This document shows positions 8,723 to 62,035 of a stretch of DNA of 64,000 nt, piece after piece (the stretch's first letter is position 1; the number at the start of each line of letters is the position of its first letter). Source of the DNA: Streptomyces sp. Edi2 (GTDB lineage: Bacteria > Actinomycetota > Actinomycetes > Streptomycetales > Streptomycetaceae); contig NZ_JBEJGX010000003.1 in the NCBI RefSeq assembly GCF_040253635.1, forward strand, positions 8,147,501 to 8,211,500. The letters run 5' to 3'. A program made the position numbers and the translations under genes. The notes below the pieces were generated by a model. It searched no databases. It was not told the origin of the DNA and saw nothing but the letters and a program-made list of their open reading frames with translations.

Positions 8723-9079
8723 TCGCTGTTAGAGATGTCTATGCGTTTGGTGGTCGCGATTATGCTCGTGCCTGAAGCTCATGTTGTCCGGTAGCGCATC
8801 ACAGACGTGTGACCCCGCGTGACAGCCTGCCGGGCGGCCGCGTTTGGTTACCTGATGGCCGCGTAATGTGATGCAGGGCGGGCTGCAATACTTCGCAGTA
8901 CAATGAAAATGGTTTTGGGTTGGGCTTCGAACAGGGCCGGGGCGATCGCTACTGGCGGCCCACCAGTGCACAACTCGAGACAGCATGTCTCTGTCCTCCC
9001 CTCACCCGGCTTCTCCAGCCGTGGGGGACGCCGTGCGCCCTCGCGACGGGCGAAGCGGGCTTCGCGTGAGGAGCCTGAA
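8723..9079. other. Upstream region of the lysozyme-like gene
   Basis: About 357 bp between an IS end and the next gene. It probably carries the promoter of the 9080 gene but I see no clear motif. A longer frame extends upstream from 9080 to 8903 but has no ribosome-binding site. Confidence 0.35.
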
Positions 9080-48907: not shown

Positions 48908-50545
48908 TCAGGGGGCCGTCCGCGCCCCCGGGCGATTTGTCGTTGCCATGAGGGAGAGGGTGAAGGGGTGTTCCGGCTTGGTGAGGAGCTGTGGGGACGG
49001 GCCCTGTTCGACTACTTTTCCGGCGTCGAGGACGGCGATGTGGTGGGCCAGGGCCGCGGTGTGCAGGTCGTGGGTGATCAGGATGAGGGAGAGGTCTTCG
49101 CGGGTGCCGAGAAGGGTCGTGAGGGTGTCGAGGATGCTGCGGCGGGTGACCGTGTCCAGGCCGGAGGTGATCTCGTCGCAGATGAGGACGCGGGGGTGGG
49201 CGAGCAGGGCGCGGGCGAGGGCGGCGCGCTGGAGTTCACCGCCGGACAGCTGACCGGGGCGTCGACCGGTGAGCTGTTCGGGGAGGCCGAGGCCGGTGAG
49301 CGCGGCCAGGGCCTCGGCCCGTGCGGTGTGGTGGTCGGTGGTGCGCAGACGTATGGCGGTGCGCGCGACCTGGTCGAGGACGCTGCGGTGTTCGTCGAAG
49401 GCGGCGCGCGCGTCCTGGAAGACGTACTGCACGGCCGCCAGCTGTGCTCGGCTGCGGTGGCGCAGGCTGCGCGGCAAGGGGACGCCGTCGAGAAGCATCT
49501 CTCCGTCGTGCGCCCGGTGCAGGCCGGCCAGGCAGCGCGCAAGAGTGGTCTTGCCGCTGCCGGAGCGGCCGACGACGGCCAGGCATTCGCCCGGACGGAG
49601 GTTGAGCTCGGGGGCCTGCAGGACCACGGTCGTGCCGCGTGTGCCGTTGCCGTGGCGGGCGGTGAGGTCGCGTACGCGCAGGACGGCCTCTCGCGGAGCG
49701 TTCTTCGCCGGAGCAGCGATCTCTGCTGGGGTGGGGTAGTCGTCGAACGAGGGCTGGTCGGCCAGTAGTTGGCGGGTCCACTCGTGCCGGGGAGCGAGCC
49801 ACAGGCGCTCTGCCGGGCCCGACTCCACGACCCGGCCCGCTCGCATGACGATCACCTCGTCGGCGAGGGCACGTACGACGTCCAGGTCGTGGCTGAGGAG
49901 GACCACGGCGATGCCTTGTGCCGCCACCGTCGTGAGCTGTTCCACGATGCGGTGCTTGGTCAGGGCGTCCTGGCCGGTGGTGGGCTCGTCGGCGACGATG
50001 ACGCGTGCGCCGAGCAGGAGCGCCTGGGCGAGGACGACGCGTTGCTGCTGGCCGCCGGAGAGCTGGTGGGGGTAGCGTCGCAACAGGGGCTCGGTGTCCG
50101 CGAGTTGGGCATCGACGAGGGCCTGCAGGATGCGTTCGCGGGCCGCTGCTCGGCGTTCGGCACGGGGGAGGTGGCGTACCTGTGTACGGGCGATGTCGGT
50201 CAGGAGGGCGGCGATCCGGCGGGCGGGGTTGAGGACGGCCGCCGGGTGCTGCGGGATGTAGCCGGCCAGGCCGTCGGCGGCCAGGCGGATGTCGCCGGTC
50301 ACCCGGGCGCTCGACGGGTACTCGCCGAGCAGGGCGAGGCCGGTGGTGGTCTTGCCGCTGCCGGAGGCGCCCACCAGGGCGGTGACCTTGCCGGGCAGGG
50401 CGCGCAGGCTCACTCCCTCGACGATCGCCCTCCCGCCGACCACGACGCACAGGTCGCGGACCTCGGCCACGGGATCGGCGGCGCCGGTATGCGGGGATGC
50501 GCCGGGCGTGCCGGTCCGGTCCGTCATCTCATTCTCGTGGTTCAC
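48908..50545 (-). CDS. Fused double ATPase of an oligopeptide/nickel-type ABC importer
   Basis: 545 residues holding two complete ATPase domains (DppD-DppF-like). Domain 1: GASGSGKTTTG, LSGGQQQR, VIVADEPTTGQD, LLSHDLD. Domain 2: GRSGSGKTTLA, LSGGELQR, VLICDEITSGLD, LITHDLH. GTG at 50545 or ATG at 50527 could be the start; neither has a strong ribosome-binding site. Last gene of the predicted metallophore operon; it powers the two permeases encoded immediately upstream. Confidence 0.92.
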   Translation of the reverse strand: MNHENEMTDRTGTPGASPHTGAADPVAEVRDLCVVVGGRAIVEGVSLRALPGKVTALVGASGSGKTTTGLALLGEYPSSARVTGDIRLAADGLAGYIPQHPAAVLNPARRIAALLTDIARTQVRHLPRAERRAAARERILQALVDAQLADTEPLLRRYPHQLSGGQQQRVVLAQALLLGARVIVADEPTTGQDALTKHRIVEQLTTVAAQGIAVVLLSHDLDVVRALADEVIVMRAGRVVESGPAERLWLAPRHEWTRQLLADQPSFDDYPTPAEIAAPAKNAPREAVLRVRDLTARHGNGTRGTTVVLQAPELNLRPGECLAVVGRSGSGKTTLARCLAGLHRAHDGEMLLDGVPLPRSLRHRSRAQLAAVQYVFQDARAAFDEHRSVLDQVARTAIRLRTTDHHTARAEALAALTGLGLPEQLTGRRPGQLSGGELQRAALARALLAHPRVLICDEITSGLDTVTRRSILDTLTTLLGTREDLSLILITHDLHTAALAHHIAVLDAGKVVEQGPSPQLLTKPEHPFTLSLMATTNRPGARTAP

Positions 50546-50585
50546 GGACGTACGTCACTCTCTGCTCGGCTGCGCGGGAACCTGG

Positions 50586-51524
50586 TCATCGTGTTTCGGT
50601 GCGTGGTGCGTGGTGCGTGGTGCGTGGTGCCCGGTGCTCGGTGGCTCGCGTCGGGTGCCCCGGGCCCTGTTGCCCCGGGCCCCGGACCCTCGTCCCCCGG
50701 TCTCTGGCGCCCTTGCCCCCAGCCCTGATACGTGTGCCACCGTCACCCAGCGCGGCGTCGACGAGCAGGTTGGTGCCCATCGTCAGGGTCACGATCAGCA
50801 GCGCGGGGACGAGCACGGCCCATGGCTGGACGAACAGGCCGACGCGGTTGCGGTCGATCATGACTGCCCAGTCGGGGGCGTCCGGCGCGACGCCGACGCC
50901 GAGGAACGCTGCGGTGGCGACGAGGTACAGCACACCCGTCAGCCGGGTTCCGGCGTCGGCGGCCAGCGTGCGCAGCATGGCGCGGCCGACGTAGCCGACG
51001 GCTGTGCGCCACCATGTCTCGCCCTGCATACGTAGCGCTTCCACCGCGGGCCTGGCCGCGGCTTCCGCGGCGGCGGCACGCACCATCCGGGCCGCATCGG
51101 GCACGTTGACCAGCGCAACCAGCAGGGCGAGGCCGACCGGGCCGGGAGTGAACACGGAGGCCACCAGCAGGATCAGCAGCAGCGACGGCACGGCGAGCAG
51201 CACGTCCAGCGGCCGCATCAGGATCTCTTCCAGCCAGCGGCGGTGGGTGAGCGCGCCGAGGAGGCCGACCGGGAGAGCGACCAGGTAGGTCAGGGCAGTG
51301 GCGCCGAGGGCGGTCAGCACGACCGGACGGCCCCCGTGCAACACCTGCTGCCACACGTCCCGGCCCACGAAGTCGGTGCCCAGCCAGTGCCCATGGCCGA
51401 AGGTGAAGGACGTGGCCCGTGGGCCCGGGTCGCCCGCGGCCAACGGGCCCAGGAGGGCCAGCACGAGGGGTACGGCGATGACGGCCGCACCGAGAGCGAA
51501 GCGGCCCGTGCGCGAGGGCTTCAC
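50586..51524 (-). CDS. ABC importer permease, DppC/NikC-like
   Basis: 312 residues from GTG 51524, overlapping the previous stop (GTGA). The DppC N-terminus (GHWLGTDFVGRDVWQQVLHG) and about six membrane helices with the coupling loop EALRMQGETWWRTAVGYVG are present. The functional part ends near residue 262 (LLVDAALGDGG). The remaining 50 residues are Arg/Thr/His/Gly-rich low complexity, produced partly by a 7-bp tandem repeat at 50599-50630, and look like a recent extension. Confidence 0.9.
   Translation of the reverse strand: MKPSRTGRFALGAAVIAVPLVLALLGPLAAGDPGPRATSFTFGHGHWLGTDFVGRDVWQQVLHGGRPVVLTALGATALTYLVALPVGLLGALTHRRWLEEILMRPLDVLLAVPSLLLILLVASVFTPGPVGLALLVALVNVPDAARMVRAAAAEAAARPAVEALRMQGETWWRTAVGYVGRAMLRTLAADAGTRLTGVLYLVATAAFLGVGVAPDAPDWAVMIDRNRVGLFVQPWAVLVPALLIVTLTMGTNLLVDAALGDGGTRIRAGGKGARDRGTRVRGPGQQGPGHPTRATEHRAPRTTHHAPRTETR
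50599..50630. repeat. GTGCGTG tandem repeat
   Basis: Four consecutive exact 7-bp units and a partial fifth in the 3' end of the permease gene; on the minus strand they encode repeated His-Ala-Pro-Arg/Thr-Thr-type residues of the C-terminal tail. Confidence 0.7.
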
Positions 51525-52474
51525 GCGACCACCCCCGCCCGCGGCGCCAGCCGGTGGGCGACCAGATCGGCACCGAGGTTCAGCACGACGGTCAGGACGC
51601 CGAACAGCACGGCCAGTCCCTGCACGACGGGCACATCGCACTCGGCGACGGCATTGAGCAGGACAGTGCCCAGGCCAGGAATCGCGTAGAGGGCTTCGAC
51701 GACGATCACACCGCACAGCAGCCAGTCGAGGGTGCGCGCGAGCTGCTGCGCGGCAGCGGGAAGGGCGCCCGGCAAGGCATGGGTGAGGTGGAGGCGTGCC
51801 CCGGAGATGCCGTAGCGGCGGGCCTGCGCCACGTACGGGGAGGCGAGCGCGTCGATCATGCCGGCGCGCACCAGCCGGGCCAGCGAGCAGACAGGGCGGG
51901 AGAGCAGGACCAGCACGGGCAGGACCAGGGCGGCGGGATGGGCGAGCAGATCCGTGCCGTAGCCGACGGCGGTCGGCGGCAGCCAGCCCAGCCGGAGCGC
52001 CAGGACGGTCACCAGCAGCACTCCGAGAGCGAACTCCGGTACCGCGTACACGGCGAGGGTCACGGAGCTGACCAGCCGGTCGATCAGCCCTCCCGCGTGG
52101 CGGGCGGCCAGCATGCCGAGGCCGAAGCCGATCGGGACGAGCAGCGCCATGGTGAGTGCGGCCAGCAGCAGGGTGGGGCCGAAGCCGCCGGTGACGTACG
52201 AGCTCACCGGGCGTCCGGAGGTGAGCGAGGTTCCGAGGTCGCCGTGGAGCAGGCCGGTCACCCAGTCGGCCAGACGCTCGGGGGCGGCCCGGTCGAGGTG
52301 CATCGCTTCCCGGATGGCCTCGATGTGGGCGGGGTCCGGCTGGTCCCCGGCCAGCGCCACGGCGGCGTCGCCCGGCAGTGCCTCGGTGAACGCGAAGACC
52401 AACACCACCACGGCCACGGTCTGTGCGACGCCGAGGAGCAGCCGCCGGACGGCGAAGGAGCGCAGTCCGCTCAC
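51521..52474 (-). CDS. ABC importer permease, DppB/NikB-like
   Basis: 317 residues. GTG 52474 is preferred because it overlaps the stop of the binding-protein gene by 4 bp (GTGA); a GTG three codons earlier is possible. Six hydrophobic segments, N-terminal RRLLLGVAQTVAVVVLVFAF, the family loop LPGDAAVALAG, and the cytoplasmic coupling motif near YVAQARRYGISGARLHLTHA. Pairs with the DppC-like protein to form the membrane channel. Confidence 0.9.
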   Translation of the reverse strand: MSGLRSFAVRRLLLGVAQTVAVVVLVFAFTEALPGDAAVALAGDQPDPAHIEAIREAMHLDRAAPERLADWVTGLLHGDLGTSLTSGRPVSSYVTGGFGPTLLLAALTMALLVPIGFGLGMLAARHAGGLIDRLVSSVTLAVYAVPEFALGVLLVTVLALRLGWLPPTAVGYGTDLLAHPAALVLPVLVLLSRPVCSLARLVRAGMIDALASPYVAQARRYGISGARLHLTHALPGALPAAAQQLARTLDWLLCGVIVVEALYAIPGLGTVLLNAVAECDVPVVQGLAVLFGVLTVVLNLGADLVAHRLAPRAGVVA

Positions 52475-54042
52475 GCGAGCCACACCTTGTCGAATCGGGC
52501 CCAGTCAAGGGTGTTGGCGGGTGCTTTCGCCTCAACTCCCTTCACTTTGGGGGAAGTTCCTAGGATCCAGTCCGCGAAGCCCCAGATGAGGAAGCCGCCT
52601 TCGGCGTACAGACGGCGTTGCATGCGCGCGTACACGGCGGCCCGTTCGGTCTTGTCACGCGTGGACTGTGCGTGTTGGTAGAGCGCGTCGAAGTCCTTGT
52701 GCTTCCACCGGGTGGCGTTGGTGGCGGAGTCGGTGAGGAGGCGTTGGGAGATGTGGGCGTCGAGGGGCATGGCGCCGGAGCGGTAGCAGCACAGGGTGCC
52801 GTTGTCGAGGGTGTCGCCCCAGTAGGTGTCCTTGCTGCCCGTCTTCACGTCGATGGTGACGCCCGCCTTCGCGGCCTGGTCGCGGAAGATGCCGGCGGCC
52901 TCCGTGAACCCGGCGGCCACGGCCGAGGTGTCCAGGGTGACCTTCAGTTTCCCGGCGCCGGCCTGCTGGAGCAGGGCACGGGCCCTGTCGAGGTCCTGGT
53001 GGCGCTGCGGGAGGCCGTCGGCGTAGTACTCGTAGCCCTTGCCGAACAGGTCGTTGCCGATCTCCCCGGCGCCGGACAGGGCGCCGTCGACGAGTTCCTT
53101 GCGGTCGGCGATGAGGAAGAACGCCTGGCGCACCCGCTTGTCGTCGAAGGGCGGCCGGTCGGTCTTCATGCAGAACGCCTGCATGGCGCTGTTGCGGAGC
53201 CGGACGATCTCGATCTGTCCCTTGCCCTCGTGGGCACGGGCGGTGGTGGGGTTCAGCTCGTGGGCGTACTCGACCTGGCCGCCGAGGAGTGCGTTGACGC
53301 GGGCGGACTCCTCGTTGGCGATGACGAATTCGAGCTCGTCGAGGTGGGGGGCGCCGTCCCAGTAGTCGTCGTAGCGGCGGAAGACGGCCGAGCGGCCGGG
53401 CGCGAAGGACACGAACCGGAAGGGTCCGGAGCCGACCGGCTTGTTGTCGAAGTCGGTGGCGTGCTCGGGCACGATGTACGCCCCGAAGGCCGCCAGGACG
53501 TTGGGGAATTCGGCGGTCGGCCGCCTGAGCACGAACTCGATGCTCCGCCGGCCGGTGGCACGGCTGGCGTCGAGGTCGATGGGCTCCAGGGACGCCTTGG
53601 CGCGGAACGCCTTCTTCGGGTCGGCGATGCGCCGGTAGCTGTAGAGGACGTCCTGGGCGGTGATCGGCTTGCCGTTGTGGAAGGTGGCCTTGCGCAGGGT
53701 GACCTGCCAGCGGTCCAGGGTCTTGTTCGGCTCCCACTTCTCGGCGAGGCGGGGCCGGGCGGACAGGTCGGCGCCGTAGTCGGCGAGCTTGTCGAAGAGC
53801 GCCTTGGCGCGGGCGGCGTCGGCGAACAGGTTGGCCAGGTGCGGGTCGAGGGTCTCGCTTGCGCCACCGCCCGCGAAGGCGGCGCGCAACCGCCCGCCGC
53901 GCCGGGGCGTGCCACCCGTGTCGTCCCGGCCCTTGTCGCCGGGGCCGCCGCAGCCGGTCAGGGCCAGTGCGCCCAGCGTGGCCGCTCCGGTGGCGGCGAG
54001 GAAGCCACGGCGGCGCAGGCCGGGGAAGCGTTCGTCGTGCAT
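52471..54042 (-). CDS. Extracytoplasmic substrate-binding protein, SBP family 5
   Basis: 523 residues. N-terminus has twin arginines followed by a hydrophobic stretch and a lipobox (RRRGFLAATGAATLGALA, LTGC), so it is a membrane-anchored lipoprotein, possibly Tat-exported. Family-5 features: LAEKWEPNKTLDRWQVTLRK, FHNGKPITAQDVLYSYRRI, KPVGSGPFRFVSF, RVRQAFFLIADRKELVDG. This family binds peptides, nickel complexes and opine-type metallophores (NikA, CntA). In this operon a metal-metallophore complex is the likely ligand; that is inference. Confidence 0.9.
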   Translation of the reverse strand: MHDERFPGLRRRGFLAATGAATLGALALTGCGGPGDKGRDDTGGTPRRGGRLRAAFAGGGASETLDPHLANLFADAARAKALFDKLADYGADLSARPRLAEKWEPNKTLDRWQVTLRKATFHNGKPITAQDVLYSYRRIADPKKAFRAKASLEPIDLDASRATGRRSIEFVLRRPTAEFPNVLAAFGAYIVPEHATDFDNKPVGSGPFRFVSFAPGRSAVFRRYDDYWDGAPHLDELEFVIANEESARVNALLGGQVEYAHELNPTTARAHEGKGQIEIVRLRNSAMQAFCMKTDRPPFDDKRVRQAFFLIADRKELVDGALSGAGEIGNDLFGKGYEYYADGLPQRHQDLDRARALLQQAGAGKLKVTLDTSAVAAGFTEAAGIFRDQAAKAGVTIDVKTGSKDTYWGDTLDNGTLCCYRSGAMPLDAHISQRLLTDSATNATRWKHKDFDALYQHAQSTRDKTERAAVYARMQRRLYAEGGFLIWGFADWILGTSPKVKGVEAKAPANTLDWARFDKVWLA

Positions 54043-54076
54043 GAAGGTGTCCTTGAGGTGTGGTGGGGAGGCGGGG

Positions 54077-54892
54077 TCAGCGGGGGGCGACGAGTCGCGC
54101 GACGAGGTGCAGGCGGTCGGCGTCGGCCGTCCGGCCCGGCAGTCGCCCCTCGCTCCAGGCGGGTTCGGTGCGCGGTCCGGGGCCGTCGTGCAGTTCGAGG
54201 ACCTCGAAGCCGTGCGCGGCGAGTACCTGCCGCATCTCCTGGGGGAACAGCAGCCGCCAGGCGGAGCGCTGCTCGCATGCCGTTGATCCGTCGTCGGCGG
54301 TCCAGGTGCGCGTACGGCGCAGGAGCTGGGCCGTGCGGTCCACGGTGAGGGTGGTGGTCGAGCGGTACGCGGTGCCCTGCCAGGTGAACCGGCTGACGGT
54401 GGGCGCGTCGAGCAGGTCGGTACGGCCCAGGAAGTACGCGCCGTTGCGCATCTCCGCGACCAGCAGGCCGCCGGGGACCAGCGCGCGGCGGCAGGAGGAC
54501 AGGAACCCGTCCACCTGGTCGTTGGTGTGGCAGTACAGGAGGGCGCTGTCCAGGCAGACCACCGCGTCGAACCCGTCCCGGCCGACGTCGAATCGGTGCA
54601 GGTCGGCGTGGACGTACTCCGGCCCGGCGTGGTGCGTACGGGCGTAGGCGAGCATCGTCTCCGACAGGTCGGCTCCGGTCACCTTGCGGCCGGCGCCGTG
54701 CAGATGGGCGGCGTCGCGGCCGGTGCCGCAGCCCATGTCGAGGAGGCGCGGACCGGCGCCGTGCCGCCGCAGGCAGTCCTCCGTCCAGCGTCCGGCGAGC
54801 CGGCCGGGGTCGGGGAAGCGGGCCTCGTAGAGCTCGGGGTTGTCGGTGAGCAGGTTGCGGGCGGCGTCCGTCGTGGCCGTCGTGGAGGTCAT
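54077..54892 (-). CDS. Class I SAM-dependent methyltransferase
   Basis: 271 residues. SAM-binding motif LLDMGCGTGRDAAHL at about residues 50-64, acidic loop VTGADLSETML, motif III VVCLDSALLYCHTND and post-motif GGLLVAEMRNGAYF. The substrate is probably a small molecule. It lies between the exporter and the importer genes of the operon, in which it may N- or O-methylate the metallophore or an intermediate. Confidence 0.88.
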   Translation of the reverse strand: MTSTTATTDAARNLLTDNPELYEARFPDPGRLAGRWTEDCLRRHGAGPRLLDMGCGTGRDAAHLHGAGRKVTGADLSETMLAYARTHHAGPEYVHADLHRFDVGRDGFDAVVCLDSALLYCHTNDQVDGFLSSCRRALVPGGLLVAEMRNGAYFLGRTDLLDAPTVSRFTWQGTAYRSTTTLTVDRTAQLLRRTRTWTADDGSTACEQRSAWRLLFPQEMRQVLAAHGFEVLELHDGPGPRTEPAWSEGRLPGRTADADRLHLVARLVAPR

Positions 54893-54905
54893 ATCGGTTC
54901 CTTCC

Positions 54906-56165
54906 TCAGGCCGTCGCCGCTGCCGCGGGTTTCTGCGGTGTCGGTTTGTGCGGCGCCGGCAGCGAGCCGTGCCGCCGCAGCCAGACCACGCCCAGGGCGG
55001 AGGCGAGTCCGAACAGTGAGCAGCACACCCAGGGCAGCCAGCCGGCGTCGTCCCGTGCTCCGGTGTCCATGGCCCAGCCGACGACCGTGTTGCCGACGGC
55101 GGCGGCGATGCCCGAGACGACGTAGAAGATCCCGAAGTACGTGCCGGTCAGCTCGGGCCGGCCGAAGCCGGGGATCAGCTCCATCACGAAGGGCTGGGCG
55201 ACCATCACGCCGAGGTAGAGCAGGAGGGCACCGAGCAGGACGGGCACGGCGTCGGGCCAACCGGGGGAGCCGGTGTCCGCCACCAGGGCCGGCGGCAGGA
55301 ACGCCAGGCCCATCAGGGAGAGGCCGACGATGATCCAGCGGGCCCGGCTGCCACGGGAGGTGAGTGCACGGGTGATGCGCAGTTGGAGGGCGAGGTTGGA
55401 CACGGTGCCGACGAGGAAGACGAGGCCCGCCGCGCCGTCCCAGCCGGTCGCGCGTCGCGCCCCGTCGGGCAGCAGCAGGTACAGCTGGTTCTGCAGGGTG
55501 AACATGCCGACCATGGCGAGGGCGAAGGCCAGGAAGGCCCGGTTGCCCAGGACTTCCCGCCAGTCCGCCAGCACGGTGCCCTCACTCGGCTTGACCTGCC
55601 GGGCGGGGAGGACCAGGGCCTGGGCGACCGTGAGGGCCGCGAAGATCCCGGCCGCGGTCAGCGCGGACGTACGGAAGTCCACCAGGAGCAGCGCGCTGCC
55701 CAGCAGCGGCCCGATCAGCGCGCCGGTCGTGGCGAACATGTTGAACAGGGCGAACGCCTCGGCCTTGCGGGCGTCGGCCTCCTGGGCGAGGTAGGCGCGC
55801 ACAGCCGGGTTGAACAGTGCCCCGGCAAGGCCGCTGAGTACCGAAGCGGCGAGGAGCAGGGGCAGGCCGTCGCCGAGGGCGAACAGCGCGAACCCGACGG
55901 TGCGCAGCGCACAGCCGGCGATGATCACGCCCCGCGCGCCGAGCCGGTCGGAGGCGGAGCCGCCGATGAGGAAAAGGCCCTGCTGACTGAGGTTGCGTAC
56001 GCCGAGGACAACTCCGACGACGGCCGCCGAGAGGCCCAGGTTCTCGTCGAGATGGGTGGCGAGGTAGGGGATGAGGAGGTAGAAGCCGGTGTTGACGCCG
56101 AGCTGGTTGACCAGCAGGAGCTGGACCGCGAGCGGGAAGCGGCGCATCTCATGCCACGTCTTCAC
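54906..56165 (-). CDS. MFS transporter, probable metallophore exporter
   Basis: 419 residues from GTG 56165, chosen for GGAGG six bases upstream; it overlaps the epimerase gene by 17 bp. Twelve hydrophobic segments with the motif A-like loop GGSASDRLGARGVI after segment 2. The position between biosynthetic genes and import genes matches the exporter in Cnt-type and EDDS-type metallophore loci, and that role is inferred. Confidence 0.88.
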   Translation of the reverse strand: MKTWHEMRRFPLAVQLLLVNQLGVNTGFYLLIPYLATHLDENLGLSAAVVGVVLGVRNLSQQGLFLIGGSASDRLGARGVIIAGCALRTVGFALFALGDGLPLLLAASVLSGLAGALFNPAVRAYLAQEADARKAEAFALFNMFATTGALIGPLLGSALLLVDFRTSALTAAGIFAALTVAQALVLPARQVKPSEGTVLADWREVLGNRAFLAFALAMVGMFTLQNQLYLLLPDGARRATGWDGAAGLVFLVGTVSNLALQLRITRALTSRGSRARWIIVGLSLMGLAFLPPALVADTGSPGWPDAVPVLLGALLLYLGVMVAQPFVMELIPGFGRPELTGTYFGIFYVVSGIAAAVGNTVVGWAMDTGARDDAGWLPWVCCSLFGLASALGVVWLRRHGSLPAPHKPTPQKPAAAATA

Positions 56166-57213
56166 GGCCCACCTCCCGCAGCTCCACGCCCAGCCCGGGC
56201 AGGGCACCGGCGCGTACGCAGCCGTCCTGGCCCCCGATCCCGGTCCACGGGTCGTGCGCGAGCAGCAGATGTCCGTCGAGGTCGGCCCAGCGGGCGCGGT
56301 CGGCGAGGTGCACGGCGGGCGCCAAGCCGAGACTGCTGGCGGTCAGGCAGCCGAGCATCAGCTCGGTGCCGCTGCCGTCGATCAACTCGGCGATCCGCAG
56401 CGCCGCGTGGACGCCACCGCACTTGGCGAGCTTGACGTTGATGCCCTGGACCCGTCCGGCCAGCCGCTGGGCGTCGTCGAAGCCGACGGCGTCCTCGTCG
56501 GCGATGACCGGCAGGGGCGACTTCTCGGCAAGGGCGCCCAGCGCGTCGGGGTCACCCGGAGCAAGCGGCTGTTCCACGGCTTCGACGCCCAGGTCCGCGA
56601 ACCGTGGCAGCAGGGCCGTGGCCTGTGCCGTGCTCCAGGCGCCGTTCGGATCGAGCAGCAGCCGCGTCCCGGGCGCCGCGTCGCGGATGACGCGGACGCG
56701 CTCCACATCGTCCTCGGGATCGGGTGTGCCCGCCTTGACCTTGATCACCTCGAAGCCGCTCGCGGCGAGGCACCGGGCCTGTGCGGCGGCGCGCAGGGGC
56801 GAGGTGATGCCGATGGTCCGGGCCGTGGCGGCAACCGGAGCTACGTGCGTACCGAGGAGCCGGTGCACGGGACGGTCCGCCCGCTTGCCGACCAGGTCGA
56901 GCAGCGCGGCGTCCACGGTGGCGGTCACGGCCGGGGGAGTGTCCGGCGGCCCGGCCAACTCGCCCGTCCGCAGGGCCTCCAGGGCGCTCTCGGGATCGGG
57001 AAAGCGGGCGAGATCCGTGCCGACGGCGAAGAAGCGTTGCCGGAGCGTTGCGGCGTCGAGCCCGTAGTAGACGCTCGTCACCGCCTCTCCGTGGCCGCGC
57101 AGACCGTCGTGTTCGACGGTGAGCCACACGGCCTCACGGGCGGACAGGGTGGCGCGGGAGATGCGCAGCGGCTCGGTGAGTTCGAGGCGTACGGTGCGCA
57201 AGCCGGACTTCAT
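56149..57213 (-). CDS. Enolase-superfamily epimerase/racemase
   Basis: 354 residues from ATG 57213 (AAAGGA upstream). All catalytic residues of the MLE/dipeptide-epimerase group are present: Lys158 and Lys160 (VIKVKAG), metal ligands Asp188 (LLLDPNGAW), Glu214 (VEQPL) and Asp239 (VIADEDAV), and the second base Lys264 (KLAKCGG). It abstracts the alpha-proton of an amino-acid or dipeptide carboxylate, epimerising it, with Mg2+. In context it may set the stereochemistry of an amino-acid-derived ligand made by the ATP-grasp and PLP enzymes. The start overlaps the preceding stop (ATGA). Confidence 0.88.
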   Translation of the reverse strand: MKSGLRTVRLELTEPLRISRATLSAREAVWLTVEHDGLRGHGEAVTSVYYGLDAATLRQRFFAVGTDLARFPDPESALEALRTGELAGPPDTPPAVTATVDAALLDLVGKRADRPVHRLLGTHVAPVAATARTIGITSPLRAAAQARCLAASGFEVIKVKAGTPDPEDDVERVRVIRDAAPGTRLLLDPNGAWSTAQATALLPRFADLGVEAVEQPLAPGDPDALGALAEKSPLPVIADEDAVGFDDAQRLAGRVQGINVKLAKCGGVHAALRIAELIDGSGTELMLGCLTASSLGLAPAVHLADRARWADLDGHLLLAHDPWTGIGGQDGCVRAGALPGLGVELREVGREDVA

Positions 57214-58304
57214 GGATTCCTTTCCGAAGGGGGTGTGGCCGCCCGGAGCGGGTCGGCGATGCGCGTGCACCGCGCCCAGCCGACGGCCTCGGCCGCGCCG
57301 GGGTGCGGGATCTCGACGGGCCGGACGGCCGCGGTGGACGGGGCCAGGCCGTGCGCGGCGGTGAAGTCGTCGTCGAAGACCGTGCCGAGGTAGCGGTGCG
57401 GTCCGTCGGGAAAGACGGTCGCGACCACCGCGCCCGGGTGCACACGGGAGGCCCATGCGGCGACGCGTGCCACTGCCCCCGTGCTCCAGCCGCCGCTGAC
57501 GAAGCTGCCGCGGGCCAGGCGGCGGCAGCTGTCCACCGCCTCGGCGGGGCCGACCCAGTGGACTTCGTCGAAGGTGTCGTAGGCGACGTTGCGCGGGTGG
57601 ATGCTGCTGCCCAGTCCGCGCATCAGCCTCGGGCGGGCCGGCTGGCCGAAGATCGTCGACCCGGTGGCGTCGACGCCGATCAGCCGCAGGGCGGGCCAGT
57701 GCCGGCGCAGCGGGGCGATGATCCCGGCGCTGTGTCCGCCGGTACCGACGCTGCACACCAGGACGTCGGCGTGGTCCAGCTGCACGGCGAGTTCGGCGGC
57801 GAGGGAGGCGTATCCGGTGTTGTTGTCGGGGTTGTTGTACTGGTCGGGCCAGTAGGCGCCGGGCAGCACCGCGAGCAGTTCCCGCAGCCGGGCGAGCCGG
57901 GCCGCCTGCCAGCCGCCTTCCGGAGCGGGCCGGTCCACGAGTTCCAGGCGCACCCCGTGGGCACGCAGCAACTGCCGCATGGAGGGCTCCAATTCACTGT
58001 CGCCGACCAGCACGACGGGGTGGCCGAGGGCCTGTCCGGCGAAGGCCAGCCCGATGCCGAGCGTGCCGGACGTGGACTCCACCACCGGGGCGCCGGGCCG
58101 CAGTTCACCGCGCTCGCGGGCGCCCAGCAGCATGGACACCGCGGCCCGCGCCTTCATACCGCCCGCGCCGAGCCCTTCGAGCTTGGCCCAGAAACCGGGG
58201 TGCGGGCCCGCCAGCTCGGTGGTGATGCGCACCAGCGGAGTGCGGCCGAGCAGGGTCAGCAGCTCCGGGCGGGCGACGGCCGGCCCGGCGTCTGTCACGG
58301 TCAC
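57210..58304 (-). CDS. PLP-dependent cysteine-synthase-like enzyme
   Basis: 364 residues from GTG 58304 (GGAGGT upstream, overlapping the previous stop). Fold-type II PLP enzyme: LLGRTPLVRITTELAG, Schiff-base Lys51 in GAGGMKARAAV, substrate loop ESTSGTLGIGLA, phosphate-binding SVGTGGHSAGI. Family members replace the beta-substituent of serine or cysteine derivatives; SbnA uses O-phosphoserine and glutamate on the way to 2,3-diaminopropionate. A similar C-N bond formation for a metal ligand is plausible here. The usual NPGGSxK is altered to GAGGMK, suggesting an unusual substrate. Confidence 0.88.
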   Translation of the reverse strand: MTVTDAGPAVARPELLTLLGRTPLVRITTELAGPHPGFWAKLEGLGAGGMKARAAVSMLLGARERGELRPGAPVVESTSGTLGIGLAFAGQALGHPVVLVGDSELEPSMRQLLRAHGVRLELVDRPAPEGGWQAARLARLRELLAVLPGAYWPDQYNNPDNNTGYASLAAELAVQLDHADVLVCSVGTGGHSAGIIAPLRRHWPALRLIGVDATGSTIFGQPARPRLMRGLGSSIHPRNVAYDTFDEVHWVGPAEAVDSCRRLARGSFVSGGWSTGAVARVAAWASRVHPGAVVATVFPDGPHRYLGTVFDDDFTAAHGLAPSTAAVRPVEIPHPGAAEAVGWARCTRIADPLRAATPPSERNP

Positions 58305-59149
58305 GGGGTACCTCCGGGACGGTCCGCGCGGTAGCGGTGGACGGTGCCGGGGCCGCCGTCCAGCCAGAAGAACGGGTAGGGCTCCGCGCACACCGCGCTC
58401 ACCCCGTGGCCGAGGAAGCGCGGCAGGATCGCGCTACCGGTCTGGGCGAACATCACCAGCTGCTTGCCGTGCCGCAGCGCGTGCTCCCGCAGCGGCTCGA
58501 AGGTCCCGTTGCCCAGCGTCATCCCGGACACCAGCAGCGCGTCGCACCGCCCGGCCGCGCCGAGCGCGTCGGTGACGACCGGTTCGCCCCACTCCGTCGT
58601 CCCGCCCTTGAGGTCGCACGGCACATAACTGAATCCCCGCGAACGCAGCGCTTCCAGAAGGGAGTTGACGACGCCGACCACGAGCACGACCGCACCCGGT
58701 GGCAGGTCGACGAGCTCGACGACGGCCCCGGCCCGAGCCCGGGACTTCTCCAGTGACGTCCCGGCCGGCAACGGCACCGGCCAGGCTCCGTGGTCCGGAG
58801 TGTGCGGGGCGGTGTGCATCAGATAGGCATCGAGTGCCGCGACCCGTACCGGCGGCAGCGGATGCTCCAGCAGCCGCGCCACGTCGGCGCCCACACACTC
58901 CTCGACCGCGTCGTCGGACAGCGCACCGGGCTCGACCGCGCACGAGCCGACGGCCCCACCCAGCCGCAGACTGAGCACTTCGTTGCGGTACCCGGTGCCG
59001 CGCCCGGCGTGCCGTACGGCCTGCCGCGTGGTGAAGGCCACCTCGATCCGCTGACCGGCGGGATCCCGGCCCAGCTCGCCGGCCAGGGTGCGCCGTATGA
59101 GCTCGTCGTACGTCGTCCCGCGGACGGACGCCGCGGCGGCGGAGGTCAT
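58301..59149 (-). CDS. DUF364/DUF4213-type Rossmann protein (putative heavy-metal chelation family)
   Basis: 282 residues, ATG 59149 overlapping the ATP-grasp stop. N-terminal alpha/beta domain (about 1-125: YDELIRRTLAGELGRDPAGQ, LSLRLGGAVGSCAVEPGALS) and a C-terminal Rossmann-like domain (about 135-275: AVVLVVGVVNSLLEALRSRG, DALLVSGMTLGNGTFEPLRE, MFAQTGSAILPRFLGHGVSA). The family was proposed to act in metal chelation and is often encoded beside metal or siderophore ABC importers. Its biochemical role is not established; here it may be a biosynthetic enzyme or metal handler. Confidence 0.82.
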   Translation of the reverse strand: MTSAAAASVRGTTYDELIRRTLAGELGRDPAGQRIEVAFTTRQAVRHAGRGTGYRNEVLSLRLGGAVGSCAVEPGALSDDAVEECVGADVARLLEHPLPPVRVAALDAYLMHTAPHTPDHGAWPVPLPAGTSLEKSRARAGAVVELVDLPPGAVVLVVGVVNSLLEALRSRGFSYVPCDLKGGTTEWGEPVVTDALGAAGRCDALLVSGMTLGNGTFEPLREHALRHGKQLVMFAQTGSAILPRFLGHGVSAVCAEPYPFFWLDGGPGTVHRYRADRPGGTP

Positions 59150-60402
59150 CGGATCACCAGCCCGGACCGCAGTTCGGCGAGCAGGTCCTCGACCCGGTCG
59201 CGGGCGCCGGTGCCCTCCGGGGCGCCCGCCATGACGTGCCCCAGGTACGCGTTGTTGCTGCCCGCCGCCTTGACCTGACGGCCGGGCTCGGCGAGCTGGA
59301 CCTCCAGCACGTCCGGTGCGTCCCGTAGCGGGCCGGCCTCCAGGGATACGAGGGTGCCGGCGGTGTGCGGTACGAGGAAGCCGATGGCGGCGCTGCGCAC
59401 CCCGGTGTCGGTACGCCGGAGGTCGGGGGCGCGGCCCAGCGCGACGTCCACGAAGGCCGCGGCCAGATCGATACCCATCACGTGGCGGATGAGCTCGGTG
59501 ATCCGGTTCCCCGCGGGGCGCGGATTGACCTCGACCACGCGCGGGCCGCCGGAGGTCAGCTTGATCTCGGTGTGCGCCACGACCCCGTCGGTCAGGCCGA
59601 GCGCCGTGAGTGCCGCCAGCGCGGTCCGCTCGGCGGCCTCCGCGTCCGCGGCGGACAGCGCCGCGGGGAACATGTGGCCGGTCTCGATGAAGGCCGGCGC
59701 CCCGCCGATGCTCTTGTCGGTCACACCGACCACATGGACCGCGCCCGCGTGCGAGACGGTCTCGACGCTCACCTCGGGGCCGTCCAGCATCTCCTCCAGC
59801 AGCACCACGGGCGCCCGCCGCTGCCCGCGTGCATTGACCGGAAAGTCGGCCAAGTCGCGTACCACAGAGGCAAGTTGGGATTCATCATCCACTCGTCGTA
59901 CATACATGCCCGCGCACAGGTCGATGGGTTTGACGACCAGCGGATAGCCGATCTCCCGCGCGGCGCCCGCGAGGTCGGCCCACTCCTCGTGGACGGCGAA
60001 GCGCGGACCGGGCAGCCCGGCGTCGGCGAGGACGCGGCGGGTGGCGTCCTTGCGGCAGGCGTTCTCGACAGCCTCGGGGCTCGGGCCGGGCAGGCCCAGG
60101 TGGCCGGCGATCCGCGCCACGGCCGGCAGGTAGTAGTCGCAGGACGTGACCACGCCGTCGAACCCCAGGGCCGCGTGCAGCCGCTCCACCAGGGGAATCA
60201 GCGTCGCGGTGTCGTTGGTGTCCGCGGTGATCACATGGCGGGCGGCGAGGAGCGGGTGCGCCGTGCCCTCGGGGGCGGAGCGCAGGTAGTGGTGCAGGTC
60301 ACGGGTGAGGAAGGTGAACTCGTGCCCGCTCTCCCTGATCGCCCGTGGCAGCAGCCTGCTCATCGATCCGACCCAGCTCTCGACCACCAGTAGATGAGCC
60401 AC
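59146..60402 (-). CDS. ATP-grasp ligase, first gene of the metallophore operon
   Basis: 418 residues from GTG 60402 (GGGAAGGGAA upstream). ATP-grasp core: AGLPGPRFAVHEEWADLAGA, YPLVVKPIDLCAGMYVRRV (ATP-binding Lys), VVLLEEMLDGPEVSVETVSH (adenine/metal Glu), EIKLTSGGPRVVEVNPRPAGN (metal-binding Glu and Asn). It belongs to the carbamoyl-phosphate-synthase-like L-amino-acid ligases that join a carboxylate to an amine through an acyl phosphate. It probably makes the amide bond of the ligand. The Zur-like dyad lies 90 bp upstream. Confidence 0.9.
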   Translation of the reverse strand: MAHLLVVESWVGSMSRLLPRAIRESGHEFTFLTRDLHHYLRSAPEGTAHPLLAARHVITADTNDTATLIPLVERLHAALGFDGVVTSCDYYLPAVARIAGHLGLPGPSPEAVENACRKDATRRVLADAGLPGPRFAVHEEWADLAGAAREIGYPLVVKPIDLCAGMYVRRVDDESQLASVVRDLADFPVNARGQRRAPVVLLEEMLDGPEVSVETVSHAGAVHVVGVTDKSIGGAPAFIETGHMFPAALSAADAEAAERTALAALTALGLTDGVVAHTEIKLTSGGPRVVEVNPRPAGNRITELIRHVMGIDLAAAFVDVALGRAPDLRRTDTGVRSAAIGFLVPHTAGTLVSLEAGPLRDAPDVLEVQLAEPGRQVKAAGSNNAYLGHVMAGAPEGTGARDRVEDLLAELRSGLVIR

Positions 60403-60491
60403 AACTTCCCTTCCCAGGCTGATGTGCAGGTATCGGGGCAGCCCGACGGCGCCCCTCTGGGGGCGGACGGTGTTGCCAGGAGAGACGATAT

Positions 60492-60506
60492 CGATAATCA
60501 TTTTCA
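60492..60506. promoter_or_regulatory. Zur-type Fur-family operator in the divergent promoter
   Basis: CGATAATCATTTTCA, a 7-1-7 dyad that matches TGAAAATCATTTTCA, the Streptomyces Zur consensus as I know it, at 13 of 15 positions. It lies 90 bp upstream of the ATP-grasp start and 36 bp upstream of the secreted peptidase start. It differs from the DmdR/IdeR iron box (TTAGGTTAGGCTAACCTAA-like), so zinc rather than iron control is favoured. It is conspicuously AT-rich against its surroundings. Confidence 0.7.
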
Positions 60507-60541
60507 TTGTCATGTTCGATGCACCTCGCTGGAGACACCCC

Positions 60542-62035
60542 GTGATTCCTCCCGCACGCCGCACGGCCCACCTGTGCGCGCTGGCAGCCCTCGTCCTCAC
60601 CCCGCTCCCCGCCGTACCAGCCCAGGCAGCGGCACCCCCGGCCGCACTCCGCTTCGGCGCCTGTCCCGACTCCGTTCCCGCTCCGCCGGCGCCGGAGCAC
60701 GTCGAGTGCGCCCGGCTGAGCGTGCCGCTGGACTGGGACCGGCCCCAGGGACAGCACATCGAACTGTCCCTCTCCCGGGTGCGCGCCTCGGGCACCCCTG
60801 CCGAACGGCGCGGTGCCCTGCTGGTCAACCCCGGCGGCCCGGGCGGCTCCGGGCTGCCGTACGCGGTCACGAAGCGGGCCAAACTCCCGGCGGGCGTGCG
60901 GCGTTCGTACGACGTCATCGGCTTTGACCCGCGCGGCGTCGGACGGAGCGCTCCCGCCGACTGCGGCACCATGGGCGGCCTCTTCGCCGCCCCGGGCGCG
61001 GACCCCGTACCGGTCGCCCCCGCCACCGAGCGGACGTACCTGACCTCGCTCCGGAACATGGCCGACGACTGCGCAGCGGGCGCGAAGCACGCGCTGCCGT
61101 ACCTCTCCACGGAACAGACCGTGCGGGACATGGACGCGATACGCGTCGCGCTCGGCGAGCGGAAGACGAACTTCCTCGGCGTCTCCTACGGCACCTATCT
61201 CGGCGCCGCCTATGCGGCACGCTTCCCGCACCGCACCGGGCGCATGGTCCTCGACAGCGTGGTCGGGCCTTGGGACTGGTACGACTTCGACGTCGTGCAG
61301 AGCCGCGCGCTCCTGCGGCAGCGGGACCGGTTCTTCGCCTGGGCCGCCGATCACCACGAGCACTTCCGGCTGGGCGGCGACGCGCACCGGACCCGCCGGG
61401 CCTACCTGCGCGTGCGCGAAGAGCTCGCCGCCCGCCCGGTGAACGGCTTCGGCCCCGCGGAGTTCGACCGCGCCGTCTACCGTGCGCTGGGCCGCACGGA
61501 ACGCTGGTCCGGCCTCGCCGACGGACTGCGCGCGTATCTGGACGACGGCGTCGTCGACGGCCTCCGGCCCGACAGCGCCTTCGACGGCCCGGACTCACGC
61601 AACTACGAGGCCGCCAACCGCATCGTCAAGTGCGCCGACGGCCCCGCCCCCGCACCGCGGCGGATCATCGCGGACCTCCGCCACACCCGCAGTCTCGACC
61701 CCCAGCCGGTACTGACCGGCATGGAAGCCTCCACCTGCGCCTACTGGCAGCACCACCCCGCCCGCCGCACCCCGCTCGGCAGCCGCGACGCGCCACCGGC
61801 CTTGCTGGTGGCCTCGGCCCACGACCCCGTCACCCCCATCGAGGGAGCACACCAGCTGCAGCGCCTGCTCCCCGGCTCGCGCCTGCTGACCCTCGACAAC
61901 GACTTCTCCCACGGCGTGTTCGCCAGCCGCGGCAACGCCTGCGTGGACCACGCCGCGGCGGCGTATCTCGTCGGCGGCAGGACGCCGGAGGCGGACGTGC
62001 GCTGCGAAGGCCCCGGGCTGCCGGCGGTGTCCTGA
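60542..62035 (+). CDS. Secreted alpha/beta-hydrolase peptidase, tripeptidyl-aminopeptidase-like
   Basis: About 497 residues from GTG 60542, chosen because GGAG lies seven bases upstream (an ATG at 60512 lacks one). A signal peptide ends near AQAAAPP. The oxyanion region is LLVNPGGPGGSG; nucleophile GVSYGTYLG; Asp in ASAHDPVTPIEGA and His in DNDFSHGVF within the TAP-like C-terminal domain. Streptomyces relatives (SlpD/SlpE, TAP) release short peptides from protein N-termini outside the cell. Its promoter shares the Zur-type operator with the metallophore operon, so it may be zinc-regulated too. Confidence 0.88.
   Translation: MIPPARRTAHLCALAALVLTPLPAVPAQAAAPPAALRFGACPDSVPAPPAPEHVECARLSVPLDWDRPQGQHIELSLSRVRASGTPAERRGALLVNPGGPGGSGLPYAVTKRAKLPAGVRRSYDVIGFDPRGVGRSAPADCGTMGGLFAAPGADPVPVAPATERTYLTSLRNMADDCAAGAKHALPYLSTEQTVRDMDAIRVALGERKTNFLGVSYGTYLGAAYAARFPHRTGRMVLDSVVGPWDWYDFDVVQSRALLRQRDRFFAWAADHHEHFRLGGDAHRTRRAYLRVREELAARPVNGFGPAEFDRAVYRALGRTERWSGLADGLRAYLDDGVVDGLRPDSAFDGPDSRNYEAANRIVKCADGPAPAPRRIIADLRHTRSLDPQPVLTGMEASTCAYWQHHPARRTPLGSRDAPPALLVASAHDPVTPIEGAHQLQRLLPGSRLLTLDNDFSHGVFASRGNACVDHAAAAYLVGGRTPEADVRCEGPGLPAVS

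Follow-up and report, generated by a model that had tools for sequence, protein, structure and literature searches.

Cnt systems, which provide staphylopine and pseudopaline, gather ligand synthesis, export by a major facilitator superfamily (MFS) protein, and import by a nickel/opine-type ATP-binding cassette (ABC) transporter in one metal-controlled operon. To our knowledge, few zincophores are known. In the literature consulted, coelibactin is the one named for Streptomyces coelicolor, where it is described as the product of a Zur-repressed cluster of a streptomycete (PMC5472717) and as nonribosomally made (PMC3430247). Two further reports state that ethylenediaminedisuccinate (EDDS) is repressed via Zur and zinc (PMC9252823) and that the cluster for ethylenediaminesuccinic acid hydroxyarginine (EDHA) in Streptomyces scabiei spans 11 kb (scab_5231-5311; PMC8914351). 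Here, we analyzed a ten-gene operon in a 64,000-nucleotide stretch of the Streptomyces sp. Edi2 genome (contig NZ_JBEJGX010000003.1, positions 8,147,501 to 8,211,500; the whole stretch is referred to as the window). Our favored prediction, which we consider reasonably probable, is that the operon makes, exports, and reimports a dipeptide-like zincophore under zinc starvation from a Zur-repressed promoter. As far as the literature searched goes, this would be a Zur-controlled metallophore system with a previously undescribed biosynthetic gene set; a preliminary description of the locus, made from the DNA letters, had likewise matched it to no known pathway.

All ten genes were verified on the minus strand, where they run from position 60402 to position 48908 of the window in a 9.8-Mb host genome (Table 1). 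Pfam and NCBIfam agreed on the families, which were those named in the preliminary description; the NCBIfam matches shown for the operon proteins all lay under the curated cutoffs, and DUF364 had none. Most genes had been said to overlap by 4 bp, which barely holds (5 of the 9 junctions); another overlaps by 17 bp, and the remaining three leave 13, 34, and 40 bp between the genes. The operon start had been placed at 60506, a position that lies within the regulatory box, and we corrected it: the ATP-grasp gene most likely starts at the GTG at 60402.

The operon resembles the Cnt loci in its transport genes, as it has a family-5 solute-binding protein (SBP) importer and an MFS gene, with Cnt models matching below their cutoffs. 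The parallel with staphylopine drawn in the preliminary description thus stands for the importer/exporter layout and ends at the nicotianamine synthase (NAS)-like enzyme and the opine dehydrogenase, both of which the operon lacks. Its epimerase belongs to the enolase superfamily, whereas CntK comes from another family. Pfam and NCBIfam found no NAS-like, opine dehydrogenase, IucA/IucC, or nonribosomal peptide synthetase (NRPS; adenylation or condensation) family among the ten genes, in agreement with the earlier remark that the first two and an NRPS were missing. Unlike the coelibactin cluster, the operon therefore has no NRPS domain in its ten genes. SbnA of the staphyloferrin B (Sbn) system is the closest solved relative of the operon's pyridoxal phosphate (PLP) enzyme. 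The operon has neither SbnB nor an IucA/IucC-type synthetase, however, and it carries a Zur box, whereas Sbn is under iron control.

For comparison with EDDS and EDHA, we used a locus (L187) that, judged by its location near 0.6 Mb and by its gene content, we take to be the EDHA cluster of S. scabiei. It encodes a family-5 SBP/ABC importer, an arginine-beta-hydroxylase-like protein, an ornithine cyclodeaminase (OCD)/SbnB-type protein, a LysA-type decarboxylase, an SbnA-like enzyme, and a MATE transporter; the OCD/SbnB-type and LysA-type genes served as our markers of EDDS/EDHA clusters. A consensus scan of this locus gave no Zur site above 9/11, and the sites resembling an iron box, which scored 14 and 13 of 19, were little over the background of 11 to 13. 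The two loci share the SbnA-like PLP enzyme (36% identity), an importer of the same family (37% identity between the SBPs), and the occurrence of the genes without an NRPS. In contrast, the hydroxylase-like, OCD/SbnB-type, LysA-type, and MATE genes set L187 apart, and the ATP-grasp, DUF364, dipeptide epimerase, methyltransferase, and MFS genes, together with the Zur box, set the operon apart. The comparison with EDDS and SbnA in the preliminary description was thus apt for the SbnA-like enzyme and the importer family. It does not extend to the OCD/SbnB-type protein and the LysA-type decarboxylase, neither of which was found among the ten genes with Pfam and NCBIfam.

To follow the operon across the genus, we searched 295 Streptomyces genomes with its DUF364 protein and found a relative in 123. 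By our tally of the listing, these divide into group A (67 to 100% identity; 69 genomes) and group B (38 to 44%; 55 genomes); two genomes had both, and one had a weak DUF364 match alone. The full ten-gene set was present in the same order in all 20 group-A loci fetched from the 69 genomes. Among 80 named loci (the best 80 of 286 matches, 79 from Streptomyces and one from "Actinobacteria bacterium OV320"), 72 held the complete collinear operon, and seven of the remaining eight run into a contig edge. The ten genes are one conserved, tightly packed unit. The last of the 80 named loci (L154, 12938 to 13600) is a decayed copy that has lost the MFS gene and everything past the epimerase. Across sampled genomes of the phylum and class, DUF364 was matched in 9 of 396, and with a group-B query in 30 of 394. 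Two of the latter from outside Streptomyces (L218 and L219) also hold the complete set, with the epimerase of L218 matched as two pieces.

The 24-bp element ahead of the operon consists of two overlapping 15-bp dyads offset by 6 bp. PMC5472717 gives the S. coelicolor Zur-box consensus as tGaNNatSatNNtCa, and TGAAAATGATTATCG, at -104, fits 10 of its 11 informative positions. The element recurred at 19 to 24 of 24 identities in all 79 named loci with upstream sequence available, and shuffled upstreams (n = 1,600) scored no more than 15/24, so its conservation is not due to chance. Against the published consensus, 44 of 46 upstreams (from overlapping sets) reached at least 9/11. The Zur-type dyad reported in the preliminary description is therefore real and widespread, and the gene set and the box co-occur, which that description had suggested checking. 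The 79 boxes, of which 28 are distinct, then served to build a matrix, and with it we scanned about 91 kb of the genome to which the window belongs. With overlapping registers set aside, the operon scored 53 bits and the promoter of the ribosomal protein L32 paralogue and CobW 24 bits; lower scores were obtained by a site at window position 8898 (19 bits), the L33/L28 promoter (14 bits), and znuA (11 and 8 bits), the latter gene identified in locus L082 via PF01297 (251 bits). The matched promoters of the zinc-free ribosomal paralogues and CobW are 7 to 10 kb from the operon, and the S18/L33/L28/S14/CobW/L32 paralogue set with its Zur-like boxes lies 5.5 to 10 kb upstream. The S18, L33, S14, and L32 paralogues are cysteine free, and L28 has one cysteine. 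The conserved box and the matrix matches to these promoters and to znuA indicate that, at the sequence level, Zur control of the operon holds. Just past the right end of the window, at G000:C3:8213370-8217900 (L081), the set comprises S18, CobW-like, L33, L28, S14, CobW, and L32 paralogues.

The counts of catalytic motifs cover copies with a length of 85% or more. In the epimerase, KxK, the D/E/D metal ligands, and DLDG were kept in 75 of 75 copies and the two KLAK lysines in 75 and 72. We take KxK and the second lysine to be the acid/base pair and DxD to serve the alpha-ammonium group; the operon's epimerase has all of these dipeptide-epimerase residues. Its closest solved relatives were 3iji (151.9 bits) and the dipeptide epimerase 3jva (131.8 bits), and its top NCBIfam match was the racemase DgcA (214.5 bits, under the 400-bit cutoff). 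The ATP-grasp protein, closest to the L-amino-acid ligase BL00235 (3vot, 110.9 bits) and then to BacD, kept the H, T, and E of HTEIKL as well as EVNPRPAGN in 79 of 79 copies. These ligases and the dipeptide epimerases (3jva, 3iji, YcjG type) are direct relatives of the two operon enzymes, with the motifs kept, and we know of no metallophore pathway that combines an L-amino-acid ligase with a dipeptide epimerase. The PLP lysine was kept in 78 of 78 copies of the SbnA-like enzyme (142.5 bits to SbnA, 5d87), which reads VGT where one SbnA entry has VST, a change that may hint at a different nucleophile. Pairs consisting of an SbnA-like gene (56 to 57% identical to that of the window) and an MFS gene were also seen in L188 (9283 to 12041; S. 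scabiei, at about 10.0 Mb) and L191 (7979 to 10734), with DUF364 absent and no clear Zur box. The closest solved relatives of the methyltransferase are glycine and aminosugar N-methyltransferases, and we predict that it is probably an N-methyltransferase itself. The DUF364 protein passes the Pfam gathering score and has the DUF364 fold (AlphaFold model with a predicted local distance difference test score of 91.8); the Pfam label of the family is "putative heavy-metal chelation," and the nearest solved structures, 3l5o and 3npg, are both DUF364 entries without an assigned function.

The preserved ligase and epimerase residues make the predicted ligand more specifically dipeptide-like than the ATP-grasp amide proposed in the preliminary description. 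Together, the two enzymes point to a D-residue dipeptide, the SbnA-like enzyme points to a diaminopropionate-type unit, and the methyltransferase points to N-methylation. In the pathway we envisage, zinc-loaded Zur would block transcription when zinc is replete by occupying the box that overlies the promoter. Under zinc starvation, the SbnA-like enzyme would take O-phospho- or O-acetylserine as an activated serine and couple it to a nucleophilic amino acid, which would yield an aminopolycarboxylic amino acid of the diaminopropionate type. DUF364, which regularly accompanies the SbnA-like enzyme, would probably be next to act on that product. The ATP-grasp ligase would then link the product to a second amino acid by an amide bond, the dipeptide epimerase would flip one alpha-carbon to yield a D-residue, and the methyltransferase would add an N-methyl group. 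The MFS protein would send the ligand out, and the zinc complex would be taken back by the family-5 binding lipoprotein, the two permeases, and the double ATPase.

We also examined, by tblastn of the neighboring genes, 30 group-B loci (L027-L040, L044-L046, and L205-L217): 17 of the 55 from the genus, after three weak loci had been set aside, plus 13 found in other genera. An SbnA-like enzyme, of a divergent type, and an MFS gene adjoin DUF364 in all 30. Importer genes were present in 26, mostly of the FecCD/Peripla_BP_2 type; those of L030, L031, and L036 are the family-5 SBP set. Of the 30 loci, 24 have a GHMP kinase, which possibly makes O-phosphoserine, 18 have a HemK-like methyltransferase, and 3 have a PhyH dioxygenase. 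At least one Zur site of at least 10/11 was found somewhere in 24 of the 30 loci. The 17 loci from the genus (331,517 bases) contained 10 perfect Zur sites and 18 of at least 10/11, whereas 40 permuted palindromes averaged 0 and 0.3 (maximum, 4). DUF364 and the SbnA-like enzyme thus travel together beside Zur sites in two cluster types, and we found no description of the group-B type in the literature searched. Groups A and B co-occur in two genomes, versus 12.9 expected (P = 3e-5, with kinship ignored); with the same neglect of kinship, this scarcity would fit two solutions to one need. In 52 further loci checked, the group-B cluster of L214 (10993 to 14800) adjoined S18, L28, S14, and CobW-like genes, which makes it the second cluster of this kind seen beside ribosomal paralogues of the zinc-free type, and L050 contained CobW fragments.

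Some of our data weigh against a Zur-controlled zincophore. Two of the 46 upstreams, both from genome G173, scored below 9/11 (one has a variant box), and the best box of L218, which has the full operon, reached only 8/11. The site at window 8898-8921 (+) outscores both the L33/L28 promoter and znuA with no recognized zinc gene adjoining; a reading frame resembling, by eye, a cell-wall hydrolase begins there. The S18, L28, L33, S14, and L32 paralogues were found in none of the 80 named loci and CobW near the operon in two (L104 and L106), so this neighborhood is not conserved. Among the group-B loci, four show no importer (two are cut by a contig end), six have no Zur site of at least 10/11, and 4 of the 18 Zur sites fall inside called open reading frames, three of these before the homologous part, in starts that are overlong. 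NikA/Dpp-type importers also move nickel, peptides, and opines, and the identity of the metal is therefore read from regulation alone. Three SbnB-family genes elsewhere in the genome score above the curated cutoff (G000:C3:7397369, 369663, and 9020679); these could provide free diaminopropionate, so that the final block is not necessarily the SbnA product. The reaction assigned to DUF364 is a guess, and the product, its zinc binding, and the induction of the operon are all predictions from sequence. With these exceptions, the core of the preliminary description (Zur-controlled synthesis, export, and import of a small amino acid-derived ligand) stands at the sequence level. More tentatively, in a view to which we give roughly even odds, the operon would represent a new metallophore class, an NRPS-independent, ligase-built D-residue dipeptide zincophore. 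It would be one of two interchangeable Zur-controlled architectures sharing an SbnA-DUF364 core, with DUF364 as a metallophore biosynthesis family, in about four in ten Streptomyces species.

A Zur-controlled metallophore could also serve mainly nickel, cobalt, copper, or several metals, as staphylopine does. The best-scoring models for the importer are of the nickel/opine type (Opp5A_nikA, Opp2B, Opp2C, and NikD, followed by CntF and CntD), and Cnt systems give broad-metal ligands under zinc control. We nevertheless consider this unlikely, as the operon box is like those that this genome has at znuA and at its zinc-free ribosomal paralogues, and Zur sites accompany both architectures. We give still less credence to a dapdiamide- or bacilysin-like dipeptide toxin or antibiotic, deployed under Zur control against zinc-starved competitors, with the ABC transporter acting in self-uptake or immunity. 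Both the ATP-grasp dipeptide ligase BacD and the SbnA-like CmnB belong to antibiotic pathways, the dapdiamide pathway includes an SbnA-like enzyme, and the operon has an MFS transporter. The SbnA/DUF364 core of group B, however, sits with siderophore-type FecCD/Peripla_BP_2 importers, and the 72 named loci noted above all retain the importer genes, seven of the other eight being contig cut.

Salvage of environmental dipeptides or aminopolycarboxylates, taken up and remodeled under zinc starvation with no biosynthesis, appears very improbable. The use of murein peptides is the best-known setting of dipeptide epimerases and Dpp-type importers, and the DgcA match of the epimerase would suit such a role, but an ATP-grasp ligase, an SbnA-type synthase, a methyltransferase, and an MFS protein make little sense there, and a Pfam search of the ten genes turned up neither a peptidase nor an amidase. 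The faintest prospect is that the operon makes EDDS, EDHA, or a close aminopolycarboxylic acid analogue: the common SbnA-like enzyme, the related S. scabiei importer, and the Zur control of EDDS speak for it, whereas the OCD/SbnB-type and LysA-type genes are missing and both S. scabiei 87.22 and the EDHA reference strain MA5143a (PMC10702961) carry the complete operon as well, in S. scabiei at 9.1 Mb, a long way from the EDHA-type locus (0.6 Mb).

If a Zur-controlled zincophore is indeed the product, the 69 genomes with the operon and the 55 with the sister architecture (two with both) would make zinc scavenging by small amino acid ligands common in the genus. DUF364 would gain a testable role in a pathway, and the combination of an SbnA-like gene, DUF364, an MFS gene, and a Zur box would provide a rule for finding clusters. 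Zinc chelators are sought against metallo-beta-lactamases, and such clusters would possibly be a source of natural ones.

Table 1. Genes and upstream features of the operon (window coordinates; SAM, S-adenosylmethionine)
Feature	Position	Strand	Evidence or remark
ATP-grasp L-amino-acid ligase, LAL_C2 domain	59146..60402	-	HTEIKL and VEVNPRPAGN motifs; Pfam/NCBIfam
DUF364 protein	58301..59149	-	Pfam, 26.5 bits; AlphaFold model; structure matches
SbnA/cysteine-synthase-like PLP enzyme	57210..58304	-	Pfam/NCBIfam; TIGR03945, 240 bits (cutoff 350)
Enolase-superfamily dipeptide epimerase	56149..57213	-	KxK, metal ligands, KLAK, DLDG; Pfam/NCBIfam
MFS transporter, likely exporter	54906..56165	-	Pfam/NCBIfam
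SAM-dependent methyltransferase, class I, probably N-methyltransferase	54077..54892	-	Pfam/NCBIfam and solved relatives
Family-5 solute-binding lipoprotein (nickel/peptide/opine type)	52471..54042	-	Pfam/NCBIfam
ABC permease 1 (NikB/DppB type)	51521..52474	-	Pfam/NCBIfam
ABC permease 2 (NikC/DppC type)	50586..51524	-	Pfam/NCBIfam
Fused double ABC ATPase (NikDE type)	48908..50545	-	Pfam/NCBIfam
24-bp Zur-type element TGACAATGAAAATGATTATCGATA	60489..60512	-	87 to 110 bp ahead of the ATP-grasp start
Promoter-like site ATGACA-17-TATCGT	60485..60513	-	Consensus scan alone; mostly under the Zur-type element

A divergent gene for a TAP-like alpha/beta hydrolase (window 60512-62035, plus strand) may begin right at the Zur element, and the box could therefore also act on this gene.

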